Shown here one piece after another: positions 4,244-34,280 of a stretch of 41,683 nucleotides of DNA (its first letter is position 1; every line of letters begins with the position of its first letter). The notes below the pieces were generated by a model. It saw only the letters and a program-made list of their open reading frames with translations, was not told where the DNA came from and searched no databases. The stretch is from Flavobacteriales bacterium. GTDB lineage: Bacteria > Bacteroidota > Bacteroidia > Flavobacteriales > BACL11. The position numbers and the translations under genes are program-made. The stretch covers positions 3,951 through 45,633 of the forward strand of contig NZRO01000037.1 in assembly GCA_002696275.1 (NCBI GenBank), read 5' to 3'.

Positions 4244-4259
4244 GTTCCAAAATTTCTCA

Positions 4260-4267: not shown

Positions 4268-4315
4268 ATAATTTTATACCATATTGATAACAATTTACTT
4301 TTCAGTTATTTTTAT

Positions 4316-4323
4316 TAAATTTG
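4316..4323 (+). promoter_or_regulatory. Bacteroidota -7 element (TAAATTTG) upstream of cysC
   Basis: taaatttg matches TAnnTTTG; 12 nt upstream of the cysC ATG at 4336. Confidence 0.45.
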
Positions 4324-4335
4324 ACAACTTAATTT

Positions 4336-4944
4336 ATGAAAGAGGAAAAAGAAAATATATTCACGATTTTTGATGATATTCTTCAAAGAGAAGATAAAGA
4401 ATCTTTACTACAACAAAGATCAATAGTGATTTGGATGACAGGACTTTCTGGATCTGGAAAAACAACTGTTGCTAAAGGAGTAGAAAGATATCTACATAAT
4501 ATTGGAATATTAAATCAGATTCTTGATGGGGATAACATTCGAGTGGGAATAAGCAACAATCTCACTTTTTCTTATAAAGATAGAGAAGAAAATATCAGAA
4601 GAATTGCTGAAGTAAGTAAGTTATTTTTGAACTGCGGTATTGTAACTTTAAATTGTTTTGTAAGTCCAACAATTGAGATAAGAAACATTGCTAAAGATAT
4701 TATTGGAGAGGAAAATTTTATTGAGGTCTATATTAATGCATCATTAGAAAGTTGTGAAGAAAGAGATATAAAAGGTCTTTACAAGAAAGCAAGAACAGGA
4801 GAAATTAAAGATTTTACTGGAATTAGCGCACCATTTGAAGCTCCAGAAAATCCTGATATAGTAATAAACACAAATAAACTTTCGATTGATGAATCGATAC
4901 AGAAAGTTTTAGACTATATTTTACCGATAATTAAAAATAAGTAA
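4336..4944 (+). CDS. cysC: Adenylyl-sulfate (APS) kinase
   Basis: 202 aa; P-loop GLSGSGKTTVAKG, LDGDNIRVGISNNLTFSYKDREENIRRIAEV, CFVSPTIEIR, DFTGISAPFEAPENPDI. Confidence 0.92.
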   Translation: MKEEKENIFTIFDDILQREDKESLLQQRSIVIWMTGLSGSGKTTVAKGVERYLHNIGILNQILDGDNIRVGISNNLTFSYKDREENIRRIAEVSKLFLNCGIVTLNCFVSPTIEIRNIAKDIIGEENFIEVYINASLESCEERDIKGLYKKARTGEIKDFTGISAPFEAPENPDIVINTNKLSIDESIQKVLDYILPIIKNK

Positions 4945-4946
4945 AA

Positions 4947-5852: not shown

Positions 5853-5863
5853 AAATAAAGAAA

Positions 5864-11300: not shown

Positions 11301-14300
11301 TTGATGTAAAATCTGTTCCTAATCTAATAAAACAAGAAAGATCTCCATCATTAAGATTATCTTCTGCTCCCTCTGCATGAACAAACATTTTCAATCGTTT
11401 ATAAGCTCTTACATCTAAATCAGAGGTTTTATAAGCCGCTCTTGAATCTCCATCTGCTAAATCACACACTTTCAATACTAAAGATTGTTCATTATCTTTT
11501 CTTGAAATAGTTGTGGTTTGATCTATATTTTGCTCAATTCCTGGGGGAAGAACATAATTAATAGGATATCTTTGACCGTTCTCTTCAATATTTACTGAAG
11601 ACACATCAAAAAGAGTTTCGTCATCAATATCATTAGGAATATATTCTCCTCCTTGAGTTAAATCTAGATTATATCTTCTCCATTCTCCTCTTACTAACTC
11701 TAAGGTAGCGAATCTACAAATAATTGGTTCTGAGAAATCAGATAAAATCATTCTCATAAATCTAATTGATTTAAAATCTTGAATACTCCCAACTACTTTC
11801 TCTGGATTATAAACAGGAACTCTAAATTGATACCACTTAATTGGTCTAGAATCTCCATTTTTTGTTGTAACACTTGTTTCTAAAATATCTGAAATATAAG
11901 GATTACTTATATCCATTGTCTGTGGAGATAATCTGACCTTATATTGAAAATAACTTTCAGATTCTCCAAGGGTATTATCTCTATTAATATCTTCTGAATT
12001 TGGAAGTGAAGTTGATGAGGTGGAATATGATTCAATAGACTGCTCCGTAGTTGCCGAATTTCCATCAGGATTATTAAAGTCTTTATATCTTTCTAATAAA
12101 GGCTTCTCTACATTATCAAAATCTGTCCCCATATAATAATGAAAATTGTCTCCAGAAGGATCGTTTATCGCATTATTATATGCCTCTGATGAAATCCCTA
12201 AAGCTGGATTATTTGCAATTTCATCAATATAATTCTCGGCAAAAAATAATCTTTCATCTTCATCTCTCAAACCGTCCAAACCTACATCCTGAAACTCCCT
12301 TGCTAAAGGGTCGTTATCAAATGCATCTACAATAGAATAAGATGTCGGAACTCTTCCCCATGCCGTGGTATCTACATCTACAACTGTTTCATCAATAGGC
12401 AATCCATTTTCAAAACTTTTATATCCATCTTTTAAAACATCCTCAGAAACATTTCCTAATTGAATATATAAATCTCCTCCTGAATGTGAAATATTACCAT
12501 CTTCGGAGTTAAAAGGATCCATCATCCAGAATTCAACAAACTCAATATTTGCAGCTTCAAAATCATTGGTTTCTATCTTCCTCATAATCCCAGCCCAGTT
12601 ATTTTGAGGATTCATCAATGTTCCATCTGAATTTAATCCACTTATCGTATAATTATAAGGACCTCTTTCATCTGGGTAATAAGCTAAATCTAAAATAGAC
12701 ATATTGGTTATTTGACTACCATATTGAGGATCTTTATTTGGGAATACCTCTTTTTCTAAAATTTCCCTAGTATAATGATAGGATTGTTGAGCAATCTGAT
12801 TTCCATTTGGTAATGTAATTTTATTATTAACGCCAGGAGGTGTATTAGATGTTGATCGAAAAAATACTGATGGATCAATAGTATACCATGCTAACTTTGC
12901 TCTTTTAAATCCTAATCTAAGGTCATTATTTAAAATAGCATTTTCAAAAATGTTATTTTGACCCTGTGGTATTGATGCCAAATGCCAGGATCTAACATTT
13001 TTTATATCTATAGTACTTCTACTTGCTTCAAAATCATCAATATAAGATGTTCCTCCTTCTCCATTGTCAATTCGTTTATGATGACCAGGTATCAATTTAG
13101 CAATTTCAGCAGTTGCTATTATTCTAGATTTAGCCTTTGTTTCTAAAAATGGTAGTCTATCTACCATTTTTGTAATAAATAAAGATTCTGTTTGATATGT
13201 TCCATCTAAACCTAAAATAGTATTAGATATTGGCTCATCTCCAGCGTTAATTTTATTTACATACGGAGATTCAGACAGCTTTAACAATGTTCCTCCTAAA
13301 ATAAAGTCCTTATTTATTTCATACTCTGTATGGAAACCAATTAATGTTTTATTCTGTATTCCAAACATGGCATTATTCTCTAAGGAAATCTTAATTGGAA
13401 TTCCAGAATTTAAAATTCCTTCATCAATTATTGTCACCCTGCCAAGCATATAATCTACAGTATAATGTTGGTTTTCTATTAGTTTCTGTGATCCCGCAGT
13501 TACAGTTACCGATCCCTCAGGAACGTTCATAGCATTTAATGAAATTTCTGAACCTGATGAGGACTTATATGAACCTTTTAATCTAAATTTGTTGAGTTCA
13601 GGATACTTCTGAGCAACTGTTAATGTTGAATCGTATAAATAATCGTATACATATTTATCTGCAATATCATTATCATTAAAATTAGTTCGCAGATCTTCTC
13701 CAAAAGGTTGCAATACTGGAAAAATAATTCTTCCATTGGAAGATCTAGCTGTTAAGCCTTCTATAAAATCAAAAACTCCATCTGAAACTATATCTTGTTG
13801 CTGATTTAAATTATCTAAATTTAACAATTTTATAATAGGGACTCCATTAACACTTCCTTCAGGTATGTAATTGGTAAGACCTCCTGACTCTTCTGTATTT
13901 TCGTATATTACATCTAAAACAAATTCATTAGAACTCATTTGATAGGCTCCTAAAGCGTAAATATTTTTCATCATCAATTCCCAATTTTTAAGGGAAGGAG
14001 AAAAGGTTGTTCCTTTTAATAGTTTTAATATTAAGGCATTAGGAGCGTTAGGTCCGTTCGAAGTTAATTCTCCAACTTGATAAGTTTGATTTCCAATAGT
14101 ATATTGAAACGCTACTGCTAATACTTCATCATTATTTAAGGCTTGATTTAAAGATATATATCCTAATTGAGGATGCAAAGTATATTCTGTTTCTTTTAGT
14201 TTTCTAGCTCTCTCTAACTTTTCATAGTCCTGCCCTCCAATAAAATTTATACTTAAATTTGAAGGAATTGCCAAAATATTATTCACTTGATTTACATCTC

Positions 14301-15477
14301 TTATACCAGCAAATTGATTAAGTAAATGTTGATACATATCGTTTGCTTGATCATTATCTGGATAGTTCCCTCCTAATGATGTGGTAAAAAAGGTGTTTTG
14401 AATATTCCCATATGTTTCTCCTAAATCTAGGAATGAAATAATATTTCTACTATTATCTGTTTCACCGGTTTTGTTAGTTATCCATACCTCAACTTTTGTA
14501 ATATTTATTGGTGAATTTACAAATGGTAGGTTCTCTAATGCTGTGTTATAATTATCTTTGAAATAATGCGATAAGAAAAAGTGTTTATTAGATTCATATT
14601 GATCAGCATAAATATCAAACTCTGAAGTTTGAGCTCCACCTGTCACCTCTACTTCTGATGTAGTAGACCTTTGTTGAGACAAAATCCCTGTAAAAGTAGT
14701 TCTACCAAATTGAAGCTGGGTTTTAATTCCCAATAAACTCTGAGACCCTGTGATTAAAGTACCGTTTAGAGGCAAACTAACGTTTCCAACCTCAATTTTT
14801 TTTATAATTTCATCTTCAAACCCCGTGTATTCTAACTTCATATCATTTTCAAAATTGAATGTAGCTTCTGTATTAAAATTAGTAGTTAACTTTAACTTTT
14901 CTCCAATTTTTCCAATAACATTCATTTGGATTTTCTCTTGAAAGTCAAATGATGTGGTTTTTCTTTGTTTTACCGTGTAGTTTGGATTATCTAATCTGTT
15001 TACTCTTAACGAAAATATTAATTCTGCAGAACCTTGAGGCCTAATATCTACTGTATTTCCTCCAAAAACTTTATCAAAAGTTTCTCCTCCAACATATAAT
15101 TTAGGCAACCCATAACTTTGTTGCGTTGATGTTTGCCTATCCCTAGTTCTAAGATCCCAATGATTCTTCATCATTAATTCAAGTTGATAATCTAAATACT
15201 CCTGAAAAGTCATTATTTTCTGTGAAAATAAATCTGTTTTACCTATACGCTGATATAAAATATATTTATCGGTATCCTCATCATAAACTACTTCTTTTGA
15301 AAAATCTTTTGGGAAGTTCATATACAATCCTCCATACTGATTAGAAGGAAAAGGGTAGCTTAAAGTAGTGTCTGTTATTGATGTATCTACTAAAAGATAA
15401 ATTGATTTTGCGTCTTTACTTGAGAAAAGTAATAGAATTATAAATAATAAAAATATATACGAATTTCTTTTATTCAA
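8314..15477 (-). CDS. sprA: Cell-surface protein SprA, type IX secretion system outer-membrane translocon
   Basis: 2387-aa single ORF. Size, N-terminal signal, repeated beta-barrel character and ruvA/gcvH neighbours match SprA; sequence such as NPNYTVKQRKTTSFDFQEKIQMNVIGKIGEKLKLTTNFNTEATFNFEN is SprA-like. Confidence 0.93.
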   Translation of the reverse strand: MNKRNSYIFLLFIILLLFSSKDAKSIYLLVDTSITDTTLSYPFPSNQYGGLYMNFPKDFSKEVVYDEDTDKYILYQRIGKTDLFSQKIMTFQEYLDYQLELMMKNHWDLRTRDRQTSTQQSYGLPKLYVGGETFDKVFGGNTVDIRPQGSAELIFSLRVNRLDNPNYTVKQRKTTSFDFQEKIQMNVIGKIGEKLKLTTNFNTEATFNFENDMKLEYTGFEDEIIKKIEVGNVSLPLNGTLITGSQSLLGIKTQLQFGRTTFTGILSQQRSTTSEVEVTGGAQTSEFDIYADQYESNKHFFLSHYFKDNYNTALENLPFVNSPINITKVEVWITNKTGETDNSRNIISFLDLGETYGNIQNTFFTTSLGGNYPDNDQANDMYQHLLNQFAGIRDVNQVNNILAIPSNLSINFIGGQDYEKLERARKLKETEYTLHPQLGYISLNQALNNDEVLAVAFQYTIGNQTYQVGELTSNGPNAPNALILKLLKGTTFSPSLKNWELMMKNIYALGAYQMSSNEFVLDVIYENTEESGGLTNYIPEGSVNGVPIIKLLNLDNLNQQQDIVSDGVFDFIEGLTARSSNGRIIFPVLQPFGEDLRTNFNDNDIADKYVYDYLYDSTLTVAQKYPELNKFRLKGSYKSSSGSEISLNAMNVPEGSVTVTAGSQKLIENQHYTVDYMLGRVTIIDEGILNSGIPIKISLENNAMFGIQNKTLIGFHTEYEINKDFILGGTLLKLSESPYVNKINAGDEPISNTILGLDGTYQTESLFITKMVDRLPFLETKAKSRIIATAEIAKLIPGHHKRIDNGEGGTSYIDDFEASRSTIDIKNVRSWHLASIPQGQNNIFENAILNNDLRLGFKRAKLAWYTIDPSVFFRSTSNTPPGVNNKITLPNGNQIAQQSYHYTREILEKEVFPNKDPQYGSQITNMSILDLAYYPDERGPYNYTISGLNSDGTLMNPQNNWAGIMRKIETNDFEAANIEFVEFWMMDPFNSEDGNISHSGGDLYIQLGNVSEDVLKDGYKSFENGLPIDETVVDVDTTAWGRVPTSYSIVDAFDNDPLAREFQDVGLDGLRDEDERLFFAENYIDEIANNPALGISSEAYNNAINDPSGDNFHYYMGTDFDNVEKPLLERYKDFNNPDGNSATTEQSIESYSTSSTSLPNSEDINRDNTLGESESYFQYKVRLSPQTMDISNPYISDILETSVTTKNGDSRPIKWYQFRVPVYNPEKVVGSIQDFKSIRFMRMILSDFSEPIICRFATLELVRGEWRRYNLDLTQGGEYIPNDIDDETLFDVSSVNIEENGQRYPINYVLPPGIEQNIDQTTTISRKDNEQSLVLKVCDLADGDSRAAYKTSDLDVRAYKRLKMFVHAEGAEDNLNDGDLSCFIRLGTDFTSNYYEYEIPLKATNYGENGRLEVWPIENNIDIEFEQFQAAKQERNFSGVDVSTPYLVYLTGGKKITVVGNPNLSRVKTIMLGVRNPKKTSLDSEDDGLAKCGQIWVNELRLTDFDEYGGWAANARFTTRLADFGTVTMSGSMSTIGFGSIEKKVNERQKSDNYQYDLSSNLDLGKFFPEKFGVKIPMHISSSEHISNPQYNPLDPDILFNTTLQTMESKNERDSLKHIAQDYVSRNSINFTNVRKLSTQDKASSGKTKSPKLYDLENFTVSYSRIEDFIRNINTEQNRTKTYRGAITYNFNTRPKNIKPFSKLKIGKGPYARLIKDINFYSMPKSFSFRTDLDRMYNITLLRNVNNSYMLIEPTYNKYFNWNKSYEFKYDLTRTLKVDFSARNQASIDEPEGRMDRDYIYFKENRDTVWNNFWQGGRPTMYHHDVSVNYQLPLNKIPLTNFLSLNTRYSANFDWTSAPIALDDLGNNIQNSNNIQYNGQINMTSLYNKVPYFKKILASNKRKQRVRGRTSRTNKETEKEEEEKKKDRFVIIKHAARFVLGVKNISINLTHNKGTFIPGFLPEANFFGQQWGEIAPGIPFVLGSQRELITTAGEKGWLTQNENINTLYKRNASTNLVLRSTLEPFNKFRIELTANKNNSMNQQEYYRWSSDDNMFASFSEMQQGQYSISFISWGTAFNRDNDNSESLTFQKFRNYRNEIARRIASQNPNYSGIIDSTGYPEGYGAASQDVIIPAFLAAYSGKDALGVSLSSTPSIPLPNWRINYDGLMQIKFIKKKFQTFSLGHAYRSTYTVGSYVSSLDYEDNGSGWSSSINPNTGNFFSQYEIGQVTINEQFSPLIKLDMTWKSSLITKLEIKKNRTLNLSLSNNQLTEIKGSEYVIGTGYRLKDLEFRFRSGGRGKKISSDLDIKLDLNIRNNKTVIRKIVENDEQTTMGQQTISIKFSADYVVNSRLNLKMFYDKVITNPFITTSYPGAITNAGFSLRFTLAG

Positions 15478-15487
15478 TTTTCTTATT

Positions 15488-16063
15488 TTACCCTAAAGAC
15501 TTTCTTACTAATTCTTCAACAGTAATTTCTCCAGTATGGTTTTTAAACACTTGTTCCATCTTTTTTTCTGCTGATTTTTTAGTAAATCCTAAAGCTAGCA
15601 AAGCAGATAACGCTTCTTCTTTGATAGTATTGTCCTGAGTAAACAATAAATCTGAAACTTCTTTGCCTTTACCAACCTTATCTTTAAGATCAATAATTAT
15701 TCTTTGTGCTGATTTTCCTCCAATTCCTTTTACATTTTGTATAGCTCCTACATTTGCTGAAATAATATAATGTACTATTTCCTCTGCGGAATAAGTGGAT
15801 AAAATCATTCGAGCTGTACTAGGTCCTACACCTGAAACTGAAATCAAATGTCTAAATAACTCTCTTTCATCAGAAGTGTAAAAGCCAAATAAAGTATGAG
15901 AATCCTCCTTTACAGATAAATGCGTAAGCAACTTGCAGTTTTCTGTTTGAATTGCAGTATAAGTTTGTAAAGATATATGTAATTTATATCCTACCCCATT
16001 GCAGTCGATTACTACATATGTTGGGGTTTTTTCTACTAATCTTCCGTATATATGTGATATCAT
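15488..16063 (-). CDS. ruvA: Holliday junction branch migration protein RuvA
   Basis: 191 aa; [75 protein letters not shown]. Confidence 0.95.
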   Translation of the reverse strand: MISHIYGRLVEKTPTYVVIDCNGVGYKLHISLQTYTAIQTENCKLLTHLSVKEDSHTLFGFYTSDERELFRHLISVSGVGPSTARMILSTYSAEEIVHYIISANVGAIQNVKGIGGKSAQRIIIDLKDKVGKGKEVSDLLFTQDNTIKEEALSALLALGFTKKSAEKKMEQVFKNHTGEITVEELVRKSLG

Positions 16064-18336
16064 TTATTTGTTATTTGAGCATCAACAACCGCTAAAGTAA
16101 TCATATTTACAATTTCTCTTACGGTACTTCCTAATTGCAAAATATGAACGGGTTTTTTCATCCCAACCAAAATTGGCCCTATAGAATCTGTATCTTCTAA
16201 TTCTTGAATTAGTTTATATGCAATATTTCCCGACTCTAAATTTGGGAAAATTAATGTATTTGCTGGTTTTTCAGAAAGTTCAGAAAACTCGAACAAGTGT
16301 TCTATTTTCTCATTATTCAAAGCAAAGTCAGCCTGAATTTCTCCATCAATAATTAAGTTTGGGTTATTTTCTTTTATTCTTGCAGCAGCTTTTGCCATTT
16401 TATCCGATTCTGGAGTGCGACTTGATCCAAAATTTGAATAACTTAACAATGCAATTCTAGGTTTAATTCTTAAAGATTTTATTGCGTTTGACACTAACTC
16501 TGTAATTTCTATAATATCATCTTCTGTAGGATTAGCATTTACTGTTGTATCCGCTAAAAATAAATTACCTTTTCTAGTATTCATTATATACATTCCTAAA
16601 ACCTTTTTCACATCGTCTCTTTTTCCTATCACTTCTAAAGCTGGTTTGATGGTATTTGGATAATTTCTGGTAATCCCAGAAATAAGAGCGTCAGCCTCTC
16701 CTATTTCTACCATCATGGATCCAAAATAATTTCTTTCTCTCATTAATTTTGTCGCCTCAAATTTAGTAAGTCCTTTTCTTCTTCTTTTCTGCCACAAATG
16801 AAGACCAAATTCCTCTCTCTTTTTTACTTGTTTTGTTTCTTTTGGGTCAATTATCTCTGCATTTTCTATTTCTATAGAGAATTCCTCTATTAAGTCTTTA
16901 ATCTTTTCCCTTCTTCCAAGTAAAACAGGACTAAGAACAATACCTTCATCCACCGCCTGTTCAATCGCTTTAAGCACTTTATAATGTTCAGCCTCCGCAA
17001 AAACAATTCTTTTTGGATTTCTTCTTGCTCTATTTGTTAATTGCCTAATTAGTTTATTATCATTTCCAAATCTTTTATCAAGTTCTTGTTCATATTTTTT
17101 CCAATCCTCAATAGTAAGTTGAGCTACTCCAGTACGTACTGCAGATTTTGCTACAGCTGGAGCAACTGCTGTAATTAAGCGTGGGTCTAGCGGTTTTGGA
17201 ATTATATAATCTTTACCAAAAGAGATCGCATTATCATCATATGCTAAATTAACCTCATCTACTACAGTTTCCTTTGCTAATTTAGCAATAGCTTTTACAG
17301 CAGCTAATTTCATGTTTTCATTTATTTCTGTAGCTCTTACATCCATAGCTCCTCTAAAAATATAAGGAAAACCTAATACATTATTCACTTGATTAGGGTG
17401 GTCTGACCTTCCTGTAGCCATTATGATATCATCTCTGCTCTCCATTGCATCTTTATATGAAATCTCAGGTTCTGGATTTGCCAATGCAAAAACAATAGGC
17501 CTTTTAGACATAGACATGATCATTTCTTTACTTACAACACCACCTTTTGAAAGACCTAAAAACACATCAGCGTTCTTCATAGAGTCCTCCAATGTTTCAA
17601 CTCTTCTATTTGTAGAGAATAATTTTTTTTCTGGAGTTAGATCCTCTCTCTTATTTGAAATAACTCCTTTACTATCTAACATTATTATGTTCTGTTTGCT
17701 TACACCAAGAGCAATATAGAGTTTTGCACAAGAAATAGAAGCCGCTCCAGCTCCATTAATAACTACTTTAATTTTATCGATTTTTTTCTTTACAATTTCT
17801 AGCGCATTAATTAATGCCGCTGATGAAATAATCGCTGTTCCATGCTGATCATCATGCATGATTGGAATATTTAAATCTTCTTTAAGTCTCCTCTCTATCT
17901 CAAAACATTCTGGAGCTTTTATATCTTCAAGGTTAATTCCTCCAAAAGTAGGTGAAATTGCTTTTACAGTATCCACAAATTTATCTACATCAGTAGCGTC
18001 TATCTCTATATCAAAAACATCAATATCCGCAAAAATCTTAAAGAGTAAGCCTTTCCCTTCCATGACGGGTTTTGAAGCTTCAGGCCCAATATTCCCTAAC
18101 CCTAAAACTGCTGTTCCATTAGAAATAACCGCTACAAGATTTCCTTTTGCTGTATATTTATATACATCATTTTTATTTTTACCTATTTGAATACATGGCT
18201 CAGCTACTCCAGGAGAATATGCTAAGGATAGGTCTCTTTGTGAAGCATGTTCCTTGGTTGGAATTACCTCAATCTTTCCAGCTCTTCCTCTGCTATGATA
18301 TTCTAGAGCTGCTTTTTTACTTAATTTTCTTGCCAT
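16060..18336 (-). CDS. maeB: NADP-dependent malic enzyme with C-terminal phosphate acetyltransferase-like domain (MaeB type)
   Basis: 758 aa; [56 protein letters not shown]-terminal PTA-like domain ([42 protein letters not shown]). Overlaps the ruvA start by 4 bp. Confidence 0.93.
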
Positions 18337-18422: not shown

Positions 18423-19118
18423 TTATTTGTTAATAATTAATTTTTTAATTTTTATAATTTTACCGTTCTCTACAAGATTACCAAAATAAATTCCTTTATG
18501 TAAATCTCCTAAATAAATTGACCTTTCTCCAGCTCCCTTTAATTCTATTATCTTTACAACATTTCCTAGTACGTCTGTAATTTGTAAATTAGAAGGTGAA
18601 TTTAAATTATACTGAAAATTAGTATATTCCTTAGAAGGATTTGGGTAAAAAGATCCTATTTTTTCAATTTTAGATATTTGTTCATCTGTTGAAATTCCTG
18701 TAGCTCTGTATGTTATGGTTACACATGTTCTGTCATTAGGATCTGAATCCAAATAAAAACAATATTCTACTATCGCGGTATCTGACACTCCCCAAGGTTG
18801 ATAATGTCCGGTAAAACCGTTACTTTTATCTCCAGGATTTATAGTATCAGCCTTAGTGGAGATTAAAGTTGAAGCTCCATAACATGTTCCAGCCCAACAA
18901 AAATCATTTGTTCCAGTTTGATTTTGTTGAATTACATTTTTTTCACAATAGACAATTGCTATGTTAGAAGATATGTTTTTGACTGAAAGAGCAGCTTCTA
19001 GCTGAAACTGTGATGGATCTCCGTATACAACGCTATCTCCAGTAACATCTAAACTATTTTGTGAGTTAGAGATGATAACAGTGAAGATAAAAAATATTGA
19101 TAGTAAAATCCTTTTCAT
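18423..19118 (-). CDS. Secreted cysteine-containing protein with T9SS type A C-terminal sorting domain
   Basis: Start trimmed to MKRILLSIFFIFTVIISNSQ (signal peptide). Ig-like central region with Cys residues (VYCEK, DFCWAGTCYG, VEYCFY, RTCVT); C-terminal sorting domain GSFYPNPSKEYTNFQY...GIYFGNLVENGKIIKIKKLIINK. Confidence 0.82.
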   Translation of the reverse strand: MKRILLSIFFIFTVIISNSQNSLDVTGDSVVYGDPSQFQLEAALSVKNISSNIAIVYCEKNVIQQNQTGTNDFCWAGTCYGASTLISTKADTINPGDKSNGFTGHYQPWGVSDTAIVEYCFYLDSDPNDRTCVTITYRATGISTDEQISKIEKIGSFYPNPSKEYTNFQYNLNSPSNLQITDVLGNVVKIIELKGAGERSIYLGDLHKGIYFGNLVENGKIIKIKKLIINK

Positions 19119-19260: not shown

Positions 19261-20961
19261 ATGAAAAAAATTCTATTATCGGCTTTTGTTTTAGTTTCCT
19301 TCCTGACATTTGCCCAAACAAACGTTAGTACCACTCCTGAAAACAAAAATGTTGTTCTTGAAGAATTCACGGGTATTTCGTGCGGATACTGCCCTGATGG
19401 TCATGTTGTCGCACAGGGGATAAAGGATAATAATCCTGGTGATGTAATGTTAATAAATATTCACGCAACTAGTTTTGCCAACCCTCAAGGACCCGGAACT
19501 GATTTCAGAACAACTGAAGGAACTGCTATAAATGCTTATTGGCAAAATGGCTCCGCTCCGATGGGTACAATTAATAGAAATGCCTCTCCTATGGGTAGAG
19601 GAAGTTGGGCTGGCGCAGTTTCAGCAGAATTATCTCAACCATCTCCAGTGAATGTGTGGTCAGAAGCTATAATTGATATGGGAACAAACACTTTAACGGT
19701 CAATGTTGAAGTTTACTATACAGGATCTCAGACAGTAACATCCAATAAAATTAATGTTGCTGTACTTCAAAATAATATTGAAGGTCCTCAATCTGGAGCA
19801 ACCACTTATAATCCTGCAGCTGTTTTAGCAAATGGAAACTACAATCATACTCACATGCTTAGGCATTTAATTACTGGCACTTGGGGAGATGATATTACAA
19901 ATGTATCTCAAGGACATTACGAAACAAGAACTTATACTTGGAATATACCATCAGATATTAATGGTGTTGATGTTGACCCAACAAATCTTGAAATTATTAC
20001 TTTTATAGCTGAGGGACAACAAAACATTTTAACTGGTGATTACGCAAACACATCTATAGTGTTCCCAAATGCATACGATGCTAATTTAACAAATACAACA
20101 GCTACTGATATTATGTGTGCTTCATCTGGAACAGATTTAGAAGTAACATTCAAAAATTATGGTAACATTGCACTAACATCATTAGATATTAATTATTCAA
20201 TTAATGGAGGCACTACAACAACTTACCCATGGACTGGTAATTTAACATCAGGTGGGACAGAAACTGTTACAATTTCTCAAATTTCTGTTACTCCAATTAA
20301 CACTAATAATGTTGATGTTTCAATTTCAAATCCAAATGGAAATACGGATCAAAATGTAGCAAATAATGATATGTCTACAACTTTTAGCGGTATGTACGAG
20401 GCTCCGAACGGACAAATAAGCATAGATGTAACAACAGACAATTATCCAAGTGAAACAACTTGGGAACTTAAAGAAAATGGAGTTATTATTGCTACTGGAG
20501 GGCCTTATTCTTCAACCGGACCACAATCAACTTCATACGCTACAATTACTTCAGGAAATTGTTATACTTTTGTTATGAAAGACTCTTATGGAGATGGTAT
20601 CTTAGCTCCAGGTAACTACAAGGTTAAAGATGTTAATAATGGAACCATAATTTGGGGAGGAACAAATTCTCCGGCTGGAAACTTCACAACAGAAGAGACA
20701 AGTTACTTTGAAACTGAATCTACTTCTGTTTCTGTTGAAGAATTTAACTCAGAAATTTCTATTTACCCAAATCCTGCAAAAGATAATATTTATGTAAATG
20801 GTGAATTTGACAAAATAAAACTATACAATGTGTTTGGTAAATTAGTTTTTGAGGGAACAGATAATGTAATAAATACTAAAAATTTATCTAATGGTATATA
20901 CATTGTTAATTTAAATACAAAAGATAATATGGTTACAAAGAAAGTAACTATTTCTAAGTAG
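19261..20961 (+). CDS. Omp28-related protein with T9SS type A sorting domain
   Basis: Start trimmed to MKKILLSAFVLVSFLTFAQ. Omp28-like N-domain VVLEEFTGISCGYCPDGHVVAQGI with CxxC; C-terminal SIYPNPAKDNIYVNGEFDKIKLYNVFGKLVF...GIYIVNLNTKDNMVTKKVTISK. Confidence 0.85.
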   Translation: MKKILLSAFVLVSFLTFAQTNVSTTPENKNVVLEEFTGISCGYCPDGHVVAQGIKDNNPGDVMLINIHATSFANPQGPGTDFRTTEGTAINAYWQNGSAPMGTINRNASPMGRGSWAGAVSAELSQPSPVNVWSEAIIDMGTNTLTVNVEVYYTGSQTVTSNKINVAVLQNNIEGPQSGATTYNPAAVLANGNYNHTHMLRHLITGTWGDDITNVSQGHYETRTYTWNIPSDINGVDVDPTNLEIITFIAEGQQNILTGDYANTSIVFPNAYDANLTNTTATDIMCASSGTDLEVTFKNYGNIALTSLDINYSINGGTTTTYPWTGNLTSGGTETVTISQISVTPINTNNVDVSISNPNGNTDQNVANNDMSTTFSGMYEAPNGQISIDVTTDNYPSETTWELKENGVIIATGGPYSSTGPQSTSYATITSGNCYTFVMKDSYGDGILAPGNYKVKDVNNGTIIWGGTNSPAGNFTTEETSYFETESTSVSVEEFNSEISIYPNPAKDNIYVNGEFDKIKLYNVFGKLVFEGTDNVINTKNLSNGIYIVNLNTKDNMVTKKVTISK

Positions 20962-20984
20962 ATTTTTTTAGATTATTAATTTTC

Positions 20985-21015
20985 GAAAAGCTCAACATTG
21001 TTGGGCTTTTCTTTT
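20985..21015 (+). terminator. Intrinsic terminator/attenuator between the Omp28-like gene and the tlpA-like gene
   Basis: gaaaagctcaac-att-gttgggcttttc: 12-bp stem with one G:U pair, followed by TTTT; ends 16 nt before the next ATG. Confidence 0.85.
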
Positions 21016-21030
21016 ATAAAAAACAAACAA

Positions 21031-21537
21031 ATGAAAAAGAAACTCCTTATATCTATAATCACCCTTTTTTTAATAAGCACTAATTCTATTGGACAAGAAA
21101 GGAACTTACCTTCAGTAAAAGTAAAAGACTTGAAAGGAAAATCAATTGAATTTCAAAGCATTGAAAATGACGGAAATCCAATTGTAATTAGCTTTTGGGC
21201 TACTTGGTGTAAGCCTTGTAAAAAAGAACTCAATACTATTGCTGAAGTATATGAAGATTGGCAAGATGAAACAGGTGTGAAATTAGTTGCTGTTTCTATT
21301 GATGATAGTCGTTCAGCATCAAAAGTAAAACCATATGTAAATGCATCTGCATGGGAATATGATGTTTATATTGACTCCAACAGAGAATTAGCTCGATCGA
21401 TGGGTGTATCAACTGTTCCTCATACCTTCTTAGTTAATGGAGATGGTAAAATTGTATGGGAACACAAAGGATACATAGATGGGGATGAAGATGAACTTTA
21501 CGAACAAATAGAACATATTGCTGAAAAACAAAAATGA
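21031..21537 (+). CDS. TlpA-like thiol-disulfide oxidoreductase
   Basis: Start trimmed to MKKKLLISIITLFLISTNSIGQ; thioredoxin motif VISFWATWCKPCKKELNTIAEVY; STVPHTFLVNGDGKIVWEHKGYIDGDE. Confidence 0.92.
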   Translation: MKKKLLISIITLFLISTNSIGQERNLPSVKVKDLKGKSIEFQSIENDGNPIVISFWATWCKPCKKELNTIAEVYEDWQDETGVKLVAVSIDDSRSASKVKPYVNASAWEYDVYIDSNRELARSMGVSTVPHTFLVNGDGKIVWEHKGYIDGDEDELYEQIEHIAEKQK

Positions 21538-23204
21538 AGAATCTAATTATTATATTACTTTTAATTCTATCTTCAAAGATTTCGTTTTCACAAGATGTTT
21601 ATAGTCCTCTAGAAATTCGTGGAAATTTTGAAACTAATCTGCAATCTTATTTTGTGGACTCTTCAATTGGAGCAAATGAACCTACTCCAGAAAGAGTGTT
21701 AAATAATGCTTACTTAAACTTACTTATAACAAAAGGAAATTTTACCTCTGGACTTAGATATGAAAGTTATTTAAATGCTCTAAAAGATTACGATCCTCAA
21801 TATAGGGGAAATGGAATTCCTTTTCGATTTATTTCATATGTATCTGATGGATTAGAGGTTACCGTTGGTAATTACTATGAACAATTTGGAAGCGGATTAG
21901 CTTTAAGAACCTATGAAGACAAGGGTCTTGGAGTTGATAATGCTCTAGATGGACTAAGATTAAAATATTCTCCATTTAATGGTCTGAATGTTACTAGTTT
22001 AATTGGAAAAAGCAGAACTTATTTTGATTATTCCGAAGGTATTATTAGAGGAATGGATGCTGAAATAGTATTAAATGAAATCAAAGGACTTGAGAATTCT
22101 AAAATGTATTCAATAATGGGAGCAAGTTTTGTTAGTAGATTTCAAAGAGATAATAATCCCTCATTCGTACTGCCAGAAAATGTCGCGGCTTTTGCCTATA
22201 GAGCAAATCTTAGCTACGGAAATATTAATTATTACGCAGAATACGCTCACAAAATAAATGATCCTGTGGGTAGTATGGTGCAATCTGAAAATAATTACGC
22301 AAATGGAAAAGCTATTGTCAATAATATTTCATATTCTCAAAAAGGATTAGGGATAACTTTTGAAAGTCACTTTGTTGATCACATGGAGTTCCGATCGGCA
22401 CGTGCTAAAAAGAAAGAATACATAATAAATTATATTCCTACTTTAAGTAAACAACATACTTATACTTTATTAGCAATGTATCCTTGCGCGACACAAGCAG
22501 AAGGAGAATTTGGGTTTAACACAAATATATTCTATAAAATACCAAAAAAGAGTTTTCTAGGAGGAAAATACGGAACTAAATTAAACCTTAATTTTGCAAG
22601 AACTAATAGTATTCAAGGAGGAACATCCTTCTTAAATGATATTGATAGTTTAACACATAGCGCTGCATTGTTTAAAATTAAAGGAGAGACTCTTTATTTT
22701 TCAGATTTCAATTTAGAAGTCAATAAAAAAATAAATAAATCTATAAAAACCAACTTTGTTTTAGCTAAACAATCATACAATAAAGATGTGTTAGAGGGAA
22801 AGACTATTGGAGAATATGGTGTCATTAAATCAACAATAGCTATTGCTGATGTAAGTTATAAGATAAAAAAAGGTCATACTGTCAGAATAGAATTACAAAC
22901 TTTAAGATCTCAGGATGATCCCAATGCTCAGAAAAAAGGAGATGGTGACTGGCACATGATACTTACGGAATATACAATCTCTCCGAATTGGTTTTTTGCA
23001 ATTCAAGATATGTATAATTATGGTAATTATGATCAAGAAAAAAGATTGCATTATGCAAATGTATCTGTAGGATACTTAAAAGGAGCCAATCGATTTGCAA
23101 TTGGATATGGAAAAAAAAGAGCGGGTATTTTCTGTGTGGGAGGAGTGTGTAAAGAAGTGCCTTCTTCAAATGGATTTAGTTTAAATATTTCTTCAAATTT
23201 CTAA
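21534..23204 (+). CDS. DUF6029-like outer-membrane beta-barrel protein
   Basis: 556 aa, signal peptide, alternating beta-strand pattern, GNYYEQFGSGLALRTYEDKGLGVDNALDGLRLKYSPF; C-terminal FAIGYGKKRAGIFCVGGVCKEVPSSNGFSLNISSNF. ATGA overlap with tlpA-like gene. Family name from memory. Confidence 0.7.
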   Translation: MKNLIIILLLILSSKISFSQDVYSPLEIRGNFETNLQSYFVDSSIGANEPTPERVLNNAYLNLLITKGNFTSGLRYESYLNALKDYDPQYRGNGIPFRFISYVSDGLEVTVGNYYEQFGSGLALRTYEDKGLGVDNALDGLRLKYSPFNGLNVTSLIGKSRTYFDYSEGIIRGMDAEIVLNEIKGLENSKMYSIMGASFVSRFQRDNNPSFVLPENVAAFAYRANLSYGNINYYAEYAHKINDPVGSMVQSENNYANGKAIVNNISYSQKGLGITFESHFVDHMEFRSARAKKKEYIINYIPTLSKQHTYTLLAMYPCATQAEGEFGFNTNIFYKIPKKSFLGGKYGTKLNLNFARTNSIQGGTSFLNDIDSLTHSAALFKIKGETLYFSDFNLEVNKKINKSIKTNFVLAKQSYNKDVLEGKTIGEYGVIKSTIAIADVSYKIKKGHTVRIELQTLRSQDDPNAQKKGDGDWHMILTEYTISPNWFFAIQDMYNYGNYDQEKRLHYANVSVGYLKGANRFAIGYGKKRAGIFCVGGVCKEVPSSNGFSLNISSNF

Positions 23205-23208
23205 TATT

Positions 23209-24111
23209 ATGAAAAAAAATATTTTATATAGTGTAATTATTGGATTTTTAATAATTCTGTACTCATGTGATGTTATTGAAGGTGATTACATGACCGCTGG
23301 AACAACTAATCCAGTTGATACAGCTTCTGTTGTGAAAAAGGTATTAATTGAAGATTTTACGGGTCATAGATGTCCTAATTGTCCTTCAGCTGCTGCAGAA
23401 TTAGATGCGCTAGAAAATGCATATGGAGATAGGGTAATTGGAATAGCTATTCACCCACATTCAAACTTTTCAATTCCAAATCCTTTATCATCTTCACAAT
23501 ATACATACGACTTTCGAACATTAGATGGCGATAATATTGATGATATGTTCGATATGACAAGCGTTGGACTTCCGGTAGGAATGATAAATCGAATTGGATT
23601 TAATACCAACCACCAACTTTCCAAAGAAGAGTGGGGAGAAAAAGTTCAAGAAGAACTTGAGAAAGATCCTATCTTTAGAATTAATATTAACTCAAATGTG
23701 TCTAATGGAATTGGAAATATAACTTTAGAAGTTGAATCATTAACCAATTTAAACAGTTCATATAACATTGTTTTATGCCTCACTGAAAATAACATTATAC
23801 AATGGCAAAAAAACATTGACATAGATAATGAAGAATATAATCACAAACACGTCCTCAGAAAAATTCTAAACACAACATTTGGTGAAAGTATTGGAGACAG
23901 TTTTAATTCTGGTGACACATGGGACAAAAATTACACAGTGAACATCTCAGAACTGGAAAATCAAAATGAAAATTATTCATTAAATACATCATTTATGGGT
24001 AATGGAAACTGTACTGGATGGATTGAAGAGGATATGGAAGTAATAGCTTATATTTATAATAACTCTAATTATGAAATAGTACAAGCTGAAAAAACATCAC
24101 TAATAAATTAA
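23209..24111 (+). CDS. Omp28-related lipoprotein
   Basis: 300 aa; lipobox-like IILYSC; VLIEDFTGHRCPNCPSAAAELDALENAYGDRVIGIAIHPHSNFSIPNPL, thioredoxin-like CxxCP motif. Confidence 0.82.
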   Translation: MKKNILYSVIIGFLIILYSCDVIEGDYMTAGTTNPVDTASVVKKVLIEDFTGHRCPNCPSAAAELDALENAYGDRVIGIAIHPHSNFSIPNPLSSSQYTYDFRTLDGDNIDDMFDMTSVGLPVGMINRIGFNTNHQLSKEEWGEKVQEELEKDPIFRININSNVSNGIGNITLEVESLTNLNSSYNIVLCLTENNIIQWQKNIDIDNEEYNHKHVLRKILNTTFGESIGDSFNSGDTWDKNYTVNISELENQNENYSLNTSFMGNGNCTGWIEEDMEVIAYIYNNSNYEIVQAEKTSLIN

Positions 24112-24115: not shown

Positions 24116-25078
24116 ATGAAAAAAAAAATATTAATATTTTTCCTAGGATTTATATTTTCAAAAAATCTTTCTGCTCAAATAAATAGCATAAACAATACTG
24201 ATGATGCCTCAGCACTTCTTGAGTCATACTTTTCTCCACTTGCTGAAGCTTTTGGTTCAGGACTTAATAATGGATGGTATAATACAGCAAAACCTCATAA
24301 ACCTTTAGGGTTTGATGTTACATTTACATTAAACACCGTTAATATACCTGAAGAGATGCTTACTTTTGATCCTTCTTTAATAACAGGAAATAACTTTTCA
24401 GGTAATGAAACTCCTACTATTCTTGGTGCTGGAGATGGTTCATTAATTACATATGCTAACACATATGAGTTTCAAATGCCGAACCAAGGGAAAATAAATA
24501 AAAATTTAATTCCAGTACCAATGCTTAATGCGGGAATAGGTTTAATAAAAAAGACTGAACTAGATATTAGATATTTACCGAACTACAATTTTTCGTTAGG
24601 GTTTATAGGTAAAGGATCTGTTAATCTTTGGGGGGTAGGTTTAAAGCATGATTTAATGCAATATATCCCAATTGTTGGAAATAAAATTCCTTTAGATTTA
24701 TCATTTCAATTTGGACATACTAGTTTAAATACAAATTTTAATTATGAACCATCTCTTGGAATTAAACAAGATGTTGATTTAAATATAAGATCAACAACTA
24801 TCAACTTAATAGCTTCTAAAAAAATACTGATTTTCACTGGACACGCAAGTGTTGGATACAATTCTAACCAAACAGTATTTAACACTAATACTAATGGAAA
24901 ATTTAATTTTGGTGATAATGAATTTAATATTCCAATAGATTTTGATTTTGATGGACTAAATAAATTTAGAACAAATTTAGGGGTTAAAGTAAACCTTGCA
25001 CTTTTAGCAGTTCAAATAAACCATACCTTCTCGGAATATCCTGTAACCACCATAGGAGTTGGAATAGGACTTAGATAA
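24116..25078 (+). CDS. DUF6588-like outer-membrane protein
   Basis: 320 aa with signal peptide; DDASALLESYFSPLAEAFGSGLNNGWYNTAKPHKPLGFDVTFTLN; beta-barrel C-terminus. Family name from memory. Confidence 0.6.
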   Translation: MKKKILIFFLGFIFSKNLSAQINSINNTDDASALLESYFSPLAEAFGSGLNNGWYNTAKPHKPLGFDVTFTLNTVNIPEEMLTFDPSLITGNNFSGNETPTILGAGDGSLITYANTYEFQMPNQGKINKNLIPVPMLNAGIGLIKKTELDIRYLPNYNFSLGFIGKGSVNLWGVGLKHDLMQYIPIVGNKIPLDLSFQFGHTSLNTNFNYEPSLGIKQDVDLNIRSTTINLIASKKILIFTGHASVGYNSNQTVFNTNTNGKFNFGDNEFNIPIDFDFDGLNKFRTNLGVKVNLALLAVQINHTFSEYPVTTIGVGIGLR

Positions 25079-25079
25079 A

Positions 25080-25670
25080 ATGAAAAAAAAATTTTTATTT
25101 CTTTTTATTATTTTGATTTCTAATAATGTAAAATCACAAAACTTTAAGGGAGGTTTAATTGGAGGAGTATCAACAAGTCAGGTTTCAGGAGACAATTTGT
25201 CCGGATACAATAAAGCTGGATTATTCTTAGGTGTATTTACTCAACTTCCTGTTTCTGCAATTTCAAACATAAAGATGGAAATGAATTTTATTCAAAAAGG
25301 AAGCAGAAACCCTAAAATGAATAAGAACGGAATTCCTGATATATCTACTTCTTATCTAGAAGTACCTATTTCATTGAATTATAATCAAAATGAGTTATTA
25401 TCGATAGAATCTGGCATTCAAATAGCTTTCTTGCTAAGTTCAAAAGATAATGATGTTAATGGATCTGTAAATTCTGATCCTCCTTTTGACAAAACAGACA
25501 TAAGTGCTTTTATAGGTATGTATTATCATTATTCTGAAAAAATATCACTAAATACAAGATTTGGAAATTCAATTTTACCAATAAGAGGATACGATACAGA
25601 AAGAATTTTTATTTTTAAAAGAGGTCAATACAATACTGTGTTGAGCTTTACAATACATTATATAATATGA
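25080..25670 (+). CDS. Small outer-membrane beta-barrel protein (PorT/OmpW-like fold)
   Basis: 196 aa; signal peptide MKKKFLFLFIILISNNVKSQ, FKGGLIGGVSTSQVSGDNLSGYNKAGLFLGVF typical of Bacteroidota beta-barrel proteins. Confidence 0.7.
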   Translation: MKKKFLFLFIILISNNVKSQNFKGGLIGGVSTSQVSGDNLSGYNKAGLFLGVFTQLPVSAISNIKMEMNFIQKGSRNPKMNKNGIPDISTSYLEVPISLNYNQNELLSIESGIQIAFLLSSKDNDVNGSVNSDPPFDKTDISAFIGMYYHYSEKISLNTRFGNSILPIRGYDTERIFIFKRGQYNTVLSFTIHYII

Positions 25671-26230
25671 AAAAACACAAAATTGTCATAGCGGTAACAG
25701 GTGCAAGTGGTTCTATTTATGCAAAAGTTTTATTCGACAAATTAATTCATTTAAGCAATCAAATTGAAAATATAGGTGTTATAATGTCTGATAATGCTAA
25801 ATTTGTTTGGCAAGAAGAATTAAAAAATACTTCTTATAAAGAATATCCATTCACCTTTTATAATAAAATGGATTTTATGGCTCCTTTCGCTAGTGGTTCC
25901 GCAAATTATAATTCCATGATTATTTGTCCTTGTTCAATGGGCACCTTAGGAAGAATTGCTGCTGGCATTTCAAATGATTTAACCACTAGAGCTGCTGATG
26001 TAATGCTTAAAGAAAGAAGAAAATTAATAGTAGTAGCAAGAGAAACTCCACTTAGCTTAATTCACATTAATAACATGAAAAAAATTACTGAGTCTGGAGG
26101 AATTATTTGCCCAGCCACACCTTCTTTTTATAGTAAACCAACAAATTTTGAGGAGTTATCCGCAACAGTAATTGACAGAGTATTAACACTCTCAGGATTA
26201 CAAAATAAATCTTTTAGTTGGGGGGAATAA
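25667..26230 (+). CDS. ubiX: UbiX-family flavin prenyltransferase
   Basis: 187 aa; IVIAVTGASGSIYAKVLFDKL, MIICPCSMGTLGRIAAGISNDLTTRAADVMLKERRKLIVVARETPLSLIHINNM. Confidence 0.93.
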   Translation: MKKHKIVIAVTGASGSIYAKVLFDKLIHLSNQIENIGVIMSDNAKFVWQEELKNTSYKEYPFTFYNKMDFMAPFASGSANYNSMIICPCSMGTLGRIAAGISNDLTTRAADVMLKERRKLIVVARETPLSLIHINNMKKITESGGIICPATPSFYSKPTNFEELSATVIDRVLTLSGLQNKSFSWGE

Positions 26231-27551: not shown

Positions 27552-28796
27552 TTATGTGTGAAGATGTTTACTTTCGTCTAAGAACGGGTGATTTTTAGTT
27601 TCTAATGGTGCTTTAGTAAGAGCGTTAAAAACAACATAAATAAATAATCCAAAGAAACCTAATCCCATACCAATTTCAGTAAACCCTATATGACCTTCTT
27701 TATTTAAGACTCCAGGCGTAACTAACAGATATGAATTTAACCAATGTCCAATTAAAATAACAATACATACAAAAATTAATCTAGAATTATTTCTCTTTGC
27801 ATCTCTACTCATTAAAAGTATAATAGGAAATAAAAAGTTTATGGCTACTCTAAACCAAAATAAAAATTTATAGTTTTCTACTTCAAGTCTAGCAGTAAAG
27901 TAAGCTACTTCCTCTGGGATATTTGAATACCAAATTAACATAAATTGAGAAAACCACATATAGGTCCAAACTAAAGAAAATGCAAAAACATATTTCCCCA
28001 AATCATGAATATGGCTTTCATTAACCGACTCTAAATATCCTAATCTTTTGAGATAAAGCGTTATTAACAAAATGGAAACAAAACCTATTACAGCCCACTC
28101 TGAGAAAACATACCATCCAAATAATGTACTAAACCAGTGTGTATCAATAGACATAATCCAATCCCAAGAAGCGATTGAAGAGGTAATTGCAAAAAAGACC
28201 ATAAACCAAGCTGAAGTTCTAAATCCCTTATTATAATTTTCAAGGCCTCCATGTTTATCTTCATTTAGAGATAATTGTTTTAATTTTCTACCAAAATACA
28301 CCCAACCAAGTATATATATTACAGATCTAATTAAGAAAAATGTTGTGTCTAAAAAAGCTGCCTTCCCAGCAATAATTTTATCATATCCAGGATTTAAAAT
28401 TGGATTACCCTTCTCATCTAGGATTTGATTTCCTAAATCGTCAAGAAGAAATTTATCCATAATTCCATCAGCCATCCAGTGGTAAATATGATTTCCTCCG
28501 AAATGCATTACTGCGGTAACCATAATTATCAACATAATAATTCCAGAGATAGGTAAAAAAGATATAATAGCTTCTGGCACTCTCTTTAAAACAATAGACC
28601 ATGAAGCTTCAGCTACATACTGTAATGCTATAAAAAATACTGCAAACACTGAAATTCCTAAGAAAAAATAAGTATTAAACAGTAAACTTGGCCACGCGGA
28701 ATGAGCATCATTGACAAATCCTAAAATTAATGCAGTTACTCCAATTATCATTAGTCCAAATGATAAATTTCTAGCATTTTTGGTTATTGTAAACAT
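27552..28796 (-). CDS. actF: Alternative complex III subunit ActF (quinol:cytochrome c oxidoreductase membrane subunit)
   Basis: 414 aa multi-TM protein; FRTSAWFMVFFAITSSIASWDWIMSIDTHWFSTLFGWYVFSEW; operon position. Confidence 0.88.
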   Translation of the reverse strand: MFTITKNARNLSFGLMIIGVTALILGFVNDAHSAWPSLLFNTYFFLGISVFAVFFIALQYVAEASWSIVLKRVPEAIISFLPISGIIMLIIMVTAVMHFGGNHIYHWMADGIMDKFLLDDLGNQILDEKGNPILNPGYDKIIAGKAAFLDTTFFLIRSVIYILGWVYFGRKLKQLSLNEDKHGGLENYNKGFRTSAWFMVFFAITSSIASWDWIMSIDTHWFSTLFGWYVFSEWAVIGFVSILLITLYLKRLGYLESVNESHIHDLGKYVFAFSLVWTYMWFSQFMLIWYSNIPEEVAYFTARLEVENYKFLFWFRVAINFLFPIILLMSRDAKRNNSRLIFVCIVILIGHWLNSYLLVTPGVLNKEGHIGFTEIGMGLGFFGLFIYVVFNALTKAPLETKNHPFLDESKHLHT

Positions 28797-28811
28797 TTTT
28801 ATAAGTTTTTC

Positions 28812-29396
28812 TTATTTATTTTTTTGTAGTTTTTCTTGAATGTAATATACAATTTTCCATCTTTCTTGTTCACTTAGTAAATAAGAATGTGGTCCCATAG
28901 CATTTAAACCATATGTAATGGAATGAAACAAATGCCCCTCCTTTAAATCTCTCATATTTCCACCAGTTCTTCTAATTTGAATTGAATCTGAATAAGATGG
29001 AATAGCTGAATATACAGGATGATCTACAGAACCTTTTCCATCTCCATTTATTCCATGACAATGAGAACACATCATCACATACAAACCTTTTCCTTGATCT
29101 AATGTTTTTTCAGTCTTTACAAAAGAGGTTGGATATGTTGATTCTAAACCAGCTCTTAAATAGTCTTCATTTGAAGAACTATAATTAAAGGTTGACAATT
29201 TACCCCTAGCAACAGTACCAAGGACTGGTTTTGAATTGTAGTTTTCAATATTGTGCTCAGATTGAGCTCCAATACTTGGCGACCTATACATATCAGGCAT
29301 ATATTCAAATCCTGGGTTATTGGTTGAATCTGAAGTACAAGCAAAAAATATTGAAAGTACAGTAAAAATTCCTATATTATAAAAAAGTCTCTTCAT
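28812..29396 (-). CDS. actE: Alternative complex III monoheme cytochrome c lipoprotein ActE
   Basis: Start trimmed to MKRLFYNIGIFTVLSIFFACTSD (lipobox); YMPDMYRSPS, MCSHCHGINGDGKG heme motif. Confidence 0.88.
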   Translation of the reverse strand: MKRLFYNIGIFTVLSIFFACTSDSTNNPGFEYMPDMYRSPSIGAQSEHNIENYNSKPVLGTVARGKLSTFNYSSSNEDYLRAGLESTYPTSFVKTEKTLDQGKGLYVMMCSHCHGINGDGKGSVDHPVYSAIPSYSDSIQIRRTGGNMRDLKEGHLFHSITYGLNAMGPHSYLLSEQERWKIVYYIQEKLQKNK

Positions 29397-29403
29397 AATC
29401 ATA

Positions 29404-29919
29404 TTATTTTTCATTAATTTCAGAAGCCCCAGTCTTTGAAAGTAAGTCTTTAACTTCTTTTGTACTTCCTTCTATTTCAAATTCAATTAAAAATTTATCA
29501 TCAGTTGTTCGAGGATCTGGGTTTTCTGATTTGGCGCCAGGAAACAGTCCACATTTAATTAAATATGTAATAGACATTAAATGTGCAGCAAATAAAACAG
29601 TACATTCAAACATTACAGGAACAAATGATGGTACATTATGATAAAATGTGAAATTTGGTTTGCCTCCAATATTCATTGGCCAATCAATAATCATAATATT
29701 ATAAATCATCAATCCAGCAAATGTTATTCCTAAACAGCCATAAACAAATGCAGCTATAGCCATTCTTGTTTCTTTCAGCCCAAGTGCCTTGTCTAGTCCA
29801 TGAACTGGAAATGGGGTATAAACTTCTTTTATATCTATGTTGTTTGATTTGATTTCCTTTACTGAATTCAGTAAAACATCTTCATCATCAAAAATTCCGT
29901 ATACAGTTTTTCTAATCAT
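29404..29919 (-). CDS. actD: Alternative complex III subunit ActD (DUF3341)
   Basis: 171 aa; VYGIFDDEDVLLNSVKEIKSNNIDIKEVYTPFPVHGLDKALGLKETRM, two TM segments, GGKPNFTFYHNVPSFVPVMFECTVLFAA. Confidence 0.92.
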   Translation of the reverse strand: MIRKTVYGIFDDEDVLLNSVKEIKSNNIDIKEVYTPFPVHGLDKALGLKETRMAIAAFVYGCLGITFAGLMIYNIMIIDWPMNIGGKPNFTFYHNVPSFVPVMFECTVLFAAHLMSITYLIKCGLFPGAKSENPDPRTTDDKFLIEFEIEGSTKEVKDLLSKTGASEINEK

Positions 29920-31297: not shown

Positions 31298-31306
31298 AGA
31301 TTTAAA

Positions 31307-34255: not shown

Positions 34256-34280
34256 ATTCTTATGTAAATCAAATCTTAAA

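Follow-up and report, generated by a model that had tools for sequence, protein, structure and literature searches.

A candidate thiol-redox module of thioredoxin-fold proteins and a cysteine-pair outer-membrane barrel, linked to type IX secretion in Bacteroidota

Why would a bacterium keep two Omp28-like proteins, a TlpA-like thioredoxin, and a large beta-barrel of the DUF6029 family, each with a pair of closely spaced cysteines, side by side in its genome? The question arises from contig NZRO01000037.1 of a Flavobacteriales bacterium (GCA_002696275.1, an assembly of 1.79 Mb), of which we analysed a stretch of 41,683 nucleotides (the window). According to the original prediction, four consecutive genes form an extracytoplasmic thiol-redox module that is linked to the type IX secretion system (T9SS). 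That prediction named three findings that would count against it: no thioredoxin fold in Omp28, no conservation of the CxxC cysteines among orthologues, or no co-occurrence of the genes in other genomes. All three went the other way, and the module as proposed is supported. The case is built from the parts and their predicted folds, invariant cysteines, linkage and co-occurrence across the phylum, T9SS tails, and linkage to DsbD in two genera. On balance, we lean towards a dedicated, probably reductive, extracytoplasmic thiol-disulfide module that serves the outer membrane and the cell surface.

The four genes lie on the plus strand, with the motifs, coordinates and spacings that had been described for them. 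They encode Omp28A (19261–20961), TlpA (21031–21537; PF00578), the DUF6029 barrel (21534–23204; PF19494), and the lipoprotein Omp28B (23209–24111). TlpA and DUF6029 overlap by an ATGA (21534–21537), and 4 bp separate DUF6029 from Omp28B. The tight packing of the last three genes stands, with two corrections: Omp28A is set apart from them, and the run extends downstream to 26230. Between Omp28A and TlpA is an intrinsic-terminator-like hairpin (20985–21011, plus strand; 12-bp stem, 3-nt loop, and a T tail), which suggests that Omp28A has its own transcript. Such sites are no more numerous in this region than in shuffled sequences, and the stem length and position of this one are typical. The assembly contains just one DUF6029 gene and four Omp28 genes. 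Given these few copies and an adjacency that is repeated across the phylum, the arrangement is far beyond chance.

Both Omp28 proteins exceed the gathering cut-off of PF11551 (34.9 bits), with 80.8 bits for Omp28A and 76.9 bits for Omp28B. They fall below the cut-off of 150 for NF033782 (Omp28 family lipoprotein), at 107.7 and 144.4 bits, so they are related to this NCBI subfamily and lie outside it. Omp28A begins with a thioredoxin-like stretch, VLEEFTGISCGYCP, whose active-site motif is ISCGYCP (CGYC codons, as read from the sequence, at 19381–19392, plus strand). The Omp28 domain follows, and then a type A T9SS sorting tail (Por_Secre_tail, 47.6 bits; TIGR04183). The same tail models match the C terminus of a neighbouring protein, FCW (described below), which marks both as type A T9SS cargo. 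Omp28 members with such tails are predicted to be surface proteins. Omp28B instead has a lipobox (YSC) and the motif RCPNCP (CPNC codons, likewise read from the sequence, at 23371–23382, plus strand).

We predicted structures with AlphaFold2, using alignments built from the loci of our named scan, in which the CVGGVC region of the barrel was one of two seed patterns. For Omp28B (66 rows; pLDDT 90.2, pTM 0.84), the model has a thioredoxin-like N domain followed by a beta-sandwich C domain. The elements of the N domain are, in order, strand 45–50, the CxxC motif (55–58) at the start of helix 58–75, strand 76–82, helix 105–114, P122, and strand 123–126. This is the arrangement of a thioredoxin-fold oxidoreductase, with P122 at the predicted cis-Pro position. 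The best match of the model in the PDB, by Foldseek, is HBP35 of Porphyromonas gingivalis (5y1a; E = 8e-13, TM 0.61). The sequence profile of Omp28B also matches HBP35 (residues 29–271, E = 2.9e-9) and finds thioredoxins as well. Among the 66 Omp28 proteins downstream of DUF6029, C55, C58, H82 and the cis-Pro P122 are invariant, and the lipid cysteine is present in at least 90%. All 66 match NF045500, the model for "Omp28-related selenoprotein."

The TlpA-like protein has an AhpC-TSA/Redoxin fold, a cleavable signal peptide, the motif WATWCKPCKK (CKPC codons read at 21208–21219, plus strand), and a proline at the cis-Pro position (130), as expected for a periplasmic thioredoxin of the TlpA/ResA type. 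W59, C60, P62, C63 and P130 are invariant among 43 aligned TlpA-like proteins. It scored 96 bits against the specific ResA model, whose cut-off is 170 bits, so we claim only membership in the superfamily.

DUF6029 matches PF19494 over its full length (560 bits; 1–538 of 538). Its AlphaFold2 model (67 rows; pLDDT 90.6, pTM 0.85) has 24 membrane strands, short turns that alternate with long loops, and a C-terminal Phe, and we therefore predict an outer-membrane beta-barrel. The odd-numbered loops total 203 residues and the even-numbered loops 46. Such an asymmetry commonly distinguishes the extracellular from the periplasmic side. By this reasoning, the CVGGVC motif (Cys534 to Cys539; 23133–23150, plus strand), a small hairpin in the last of the long loops, is predicted to be extracellular. 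In a phylum-wide alignment of proteins that were chosen by the whole-length Pfam model, 79 of 80 rows contain both CxGGxC cysteines. The remaining row (L143) proved to be a false match to DUF6029, so the pair is present in 79 of 79 true members. It is also invariant among the 67 members of a second alignment (A2). These cysteines are among the few residues that are kept in every true member of this divergent family. Among solved structures, Foldseek found no close fold relative of the barrel and returned generic large barrels only (TM of 0.48 or below). At one locus (L082), the DUF6029 gene is split into open reading frames of 372 and 219 amino acids, the first of which has no cysteines; this may be a frameshift, a pseudogene, or an assembly error.

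Do these genes stay together in other genomes? We compared 180 DUF6029 loci: 80 from a phylum sample supplemented with close relatives, 80 from the named scan, and 20 more from one family. (Because a few genomes are shared between these samples, some of the loci are not independent.) TlpA is directly beside DUF6029 in 153 of the 180 loci. In 168, Omp28 or a second thioredoxin is within three genes of the barrel. Both counts bear out the predicted co-occurrence. When counted by family in the first set of loci, TlpA is found in 27 of 30 families, as is a second partner with a thioredoxin fold. Within the named scan, whose seeding with the CVGGVC region calls for some caution, TlpA immediately precedes DUF6029 in 62 of 72 cases and Omp28 immediately follows it in 71 of 76. 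The cultivable environmental species Hymenobacter duratus has the set in its genome as well (L167). In the 20 genomes from one family, TlpA is always adjacent to DUF6029, with Omp28 just beyond it and divergently transcribed; genes for a T9SS-tailed Omp28 and for FCW lie on either side, while the other partners change place.

The association also holds without regard to gene order. Across the 248 genomes of the phylum sample, Omp28 is present in 53, and 49 of these have DUF6029, versus 68 of 248 overall (Fisher test, 3e-31). The association remains when stratified by family (z = 6.5). For example, one family of 16 genomes has both Omp28 and DUF6029 in seven members and neither in the other nine. 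Most of the genomes with DUF6029 and no Omp28 belong to a single family, in which two proteins with thioredoxin domains (one a lipoprotein, the other T9SS-tailed) replace Omp28. Thus, the type of partner is interchangeable across lineages: an Omp28 lipoprotein, an Omp28 with a T9SS tail, or a pair made up of a thioredoxin lipoprotein and a T9SS-tailed thioredoxin. In many lineages, partners have T9SS tails. In keeping with this, the T9SS translocon SprA is encoded in 67 of 68 genomes with DUF6029, versus 191 of 248 overall, in figures that are not corrected for phylogeny.

A further gene, missed in the original four-gene inventory, is that of FCW. FCW (18426–19118, minus strand; 231 amino acids) is divergent from Omp28A, and besides its T9SS tail it has no Pfam domain. 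Its C-x(3,4)-C pair, which reads CWAGTC in this protein (18882–18899, minus strand), much resembles the CVGGVC of the barrel. In 34 of 34 aligned members, C74 and C79 are invariant, within the pattern [FI]C[WFY]...C[YF]. With a profile of the FCW core, we found relatives in 82 of the scanned loci, most often at a distance of two or three genes from DUF6029. FCW is single-copy in its own genome, and 33 of the 39 genomes with FCW in the phylum sample have DUF6029 (P = 2.5e-16), some with the two on separate contigs. We place FCW in the module as a candidate fifth member. Four genomes of one family (f9: G049, G111, G146 and G186) have an FCW cargo and no match to DUF6029.

Which way might electrons flow? 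DsbD takes electrons from thioredoxin in the cytoplasm and passes them to thioredoxins in the periplasm, and both DsbD and TlpA proteins with WCxPC motifs are usually reductants, not oxidants. Like FCW and the hairpin after Omp28A, linkage to DsbD in other genomes had been overlooked. A complete DsbD is encoded directly downstream of DUF6029 at four loci (L064, L267, L268 and L269) from two genera of one family. Pfam identified the N domain, the transmembrane domain and the C-terminal thioredoxin in the two of these proteins that were searched. At L064, DsbD and TlpA share one locus with the barrel, with an Omp28 of the lipoprotein kind, and with a protein that contains a CGYCP stretch like those of Omp28 and in which Pfam names only an adhesin domain and a T9SS tail. 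In the Flavobacteriales bacterium itself, DsbD is unlinked and lies at another site. We favour a reducing role because DsbD, an importer of electrons, is linked to DUF6029.

We infer the direction of electron flow, the contacts between the parts, the passage across the outer membrane, the surface exposure of the lipoproteins, and the final acceptor as follows. Electrons would pass from cytoplasmic thioredoxin to DsbD in the inner membrane and then to TlpA in the periplasm. TlpA would reduce the barrel at its CxGGxC hairpin, or thioredoxin-fold proteins of the Omp28 family at the outer membrane (as lipoproteins, as T9SS cargo, or both), or all of these. The last step would deliver electrons to disulfides at the surface; among these, FCW with its C-x(3,4)-C pair is the best candidate, either as a substrate or as a shuttle. 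A bolder version, which we hold only tentatively and think doubtful, is that DUF6029 would span the outer membrane as a conduit or docking barrel based on thiols, the first of its kind, and that reducing equivalents from DsbD and TlpA would reach T9SS-exported thioredoxins by way of the CxGGxC hairpin. If this were true, then Bacteroidota would control extracellular disulfides.

Several observations weigh against a reductive module that reaches the cell surface. TlpA is periplasmic and the cysteines of the barrel are predicted to be extracellular: they might meet through the wide lumen or by an inward fold of the hairpin, or they may never meet, with Omp28 as the barrel's true partner. The sequence after the lipid cysteine of Omp28B is CDVIEGD, and the family signature of Omp28 lipoproteins is C-D-x-[IV]-[ED]-x-P. 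The published lipoprotein surface-export signal (LES) is similar to QKDDE, SDDDD or SDDFE at positions +2 to +6. At these positions, the Omp28 lipoproteins are acidic in a different pattern and lack the LES, so they may face the periplasm. In that case Omp28B would meet TlpA there, which would leave the T9SS members alone on the outside. Phylogeny confounds part of the link to T9SS, and a DUF6029 barrel and an Omp28 lipoprotein also occur in a genome (G230) that lacks a SprA match. DsbD is linked at just four loci of two genera, which may reflect one event. Also, the authors of a study of HBP35 found no role for it in oxidative stress (PMC2907840). (The partner in G230, at L080:3393–5459 on the minus strand, is a lipoprotein of 689 amino acids in which the Omp28 domain and the CxxC site each occur twice.)

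The main rival to a reductive module is the assembly or repair of disulfides. Under this explanation, TlpA and Omp28 form, proofread or repair structural hairpin disulfides in DUF6029 and in T9SS-exported proteins like FCW, and the surface receives no reducing power. In both DUF6029 and FCW, the invariant C-x(3,4)-C pair stands alone, as would suit a structural hairpin disulfide; these pairs are conserved whatever the type of partner; and dedicated folding catalysts are commonly encoded beside their clients. However, this explanation does not account for the export by T9SS of the thioredoxin-fold partners, beyond the periplasm where help with folding would be needed, and the usual activity of WCxPC TlpA proteins and DsbD is to reduce rather than to oxidise. 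We consider it a serious contender that is nonetheless unlikely to be right. That the genes share nothing but history, as parts of a stable gene order near sprA and ruvA with no common task, we regard as very improbable. The whole order sprA-ruvA-maeB-module-ubiX-ruvB is indeed conserved in Flavobacteriales, including genes that are functionally unrelated. But the set holds together outside of that order, with changing flanks and internal order, and the presence of both Omp28 and FCW tracks that of DUF6029 (for Omp28, within families as well), which contradicts this explanation.

Alternatively, DUF6029 could be a barrel that exports or takes up polysaccharide, haem or iron. The thioredoxin-fold proteins would then be its accessory subunits for binding or redox and might, for instance, loosen a ligand of haem or metal. 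In the open literature we found a single paper that mentions DUF6029. It suggests, from a remote resemblance, that the barrel may be a porin for polysaccharides: HHpred likened it to Wzi-type barrels near polysaccharide-export genes (PMC9603273). The Foldseek matches to DUF6029 are generic large barrels only, and no transporter, TonB-dependent receptor or polysaccharide gene recurred among the module neighbours that we inspected (their annotation is not exhaustive). HBP35 is able to bind hemin, and growth of its mutant is poor when hemin is absent, but the binding is independent of the CxxC motif (PMC2907840). The accessible part of a 2026 preprint ties an HBP35-like protein of Muribaculaceae to iron by its gene neighbourhood (PMC13404670). 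Overall, transport seems improbable to us.

As for the rest of the window, the tight run continues after Omp28B with a DUF6588 protein (24116–25078, plus strand; PF20230), which adjoins Omp28B in close relatives only, a small OMP_b-brl_2 barrel (25080–25670, plus strand; PF13568), which is a frequent downstream neighbour in relatives, and UbiX (25667–26230). The DUF6588 protein and the small outer-membrane barrel (24116–25670) also recur beside Omp28B in relatives. Just upstream of the module are SprA, RuvA and MaeB (8314–18336, minus strand), and many Flavobacteriales loci share this order. At 27552–35531 (minus strand), cytochrome c and multihaem/4Fe-4S proteins are laid out as in alternative complex III. 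A sulfate-activation cluster (488–7129) contains genes for a sulfotransferase, a polysaccharide flippase, an APS kinase, a PAPS-reductase-type protein and an EF-Tu-type GTPase.

A reductive module of this kind may give Bacteroidota control of sulfur-based redox chemistry on the cell surface. It would assign roles that can be tested to DUF6029, to Omp28 and to a hitherto unnamed T9SS cargo family (FCW), and the upkeep of the surface redox state in Gram-negative bacteria would become a genetically addressable question. How does it compare with known systems? In conduits of the MtrCAB type, a large barrel enables redox across the outer membrane by means of multihaem cytochromes. DUF6029 matches the fold of MtrB only weakly and generically (Foldseek rank 5), and by reading their sequences we found no CxxCH haem motif in the four module proteins. 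In the established DsbD to TlpA/ResA/CcmG relays of Gram-negative bacteria, as proposed here, DsbD feeds a periplasmic WCxPC thioredoxin of the TlpA type, and in two genera DsbD is in the gene run itself. To our knowledge, however, those relays end in the periplasm (in cytochrome c maturation and similar tasks), with no outer-membrane barrel or exported thioredoxins.

Each of the parts is of a known kind, and their combination appears to be undescribed. In the open literature (subscription papers and supplements were outside our scope), we found no joint treatment of Omp28, TlpA and Bacteroidetes. PF11551 and NF045500 describe the same family as our Omp28 proteins, and the selenoprotein branch fits with redox catalysis, but these proteins are described as outer-membrane lipoproteins, not as parts of a redox module. 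A protein of Paraprevotella clara (00502) that is involved in trypsin degradation is called "Omp28-related"; we dropped a link to thioredoxins, as the authors' model has WD40 and Ig domains (PMC9477747). The 2026 preprint, in its accessible part, proposes that the HBP35-like protein of Muribaculaceae protects surface proteins and aids iron transport, and does not describe the module there (PMC13404670).

HBP35 itself is a T9SS-exported surface protein whose thioredoxin activity in vitro requires its two active-site cysteines (PMC2907840). Like Omp28, it combines T9SS export, a thioredoxin domain with CGYCP (the same motif as in Omp28A), and a second domain (5y1a; PMC2907840). It differs in that it was studied as a hemin-binding protein, and no barrel partner has been described (PMC2907840). 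We considered whether hbp35 of P. gingivalis lies in the same kind of locus and rejected this: the thioredoxin-family genes listed for this species include none beside PG0616, so a TlpA neighbour appears to be absent (PMC2907840). Porphyromonas lay outside the reach of our class-wide and family searches with HBP35 as the query; four HBP35-like matches, all from one family, are directly downstream of DUF6029. In the literature, we found no electron source or partners for the exported thioredoxin-fold proteins of Bacteroidota (HBP35 and Omp28), and the module names candidates for both: TlpA, the DUF6029 barrel, in which a cysteine pair is the best-conserved feature, FCW, and, in some genomes, DsbD. 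A system with a similar logic is Etrx1/Etrx2-CcdA-SpMsrAB2 of Streptococcus pneumoniae (PMC3914529). That system is Gram-positive and lacks an outer membrane, a barrel, T9SS and Omp28, but it too has a membrane importer of electrons, surface thioredoxin-fold lipoproteins, and a client at the surface, and so places reducing power outside the cytoplasm.

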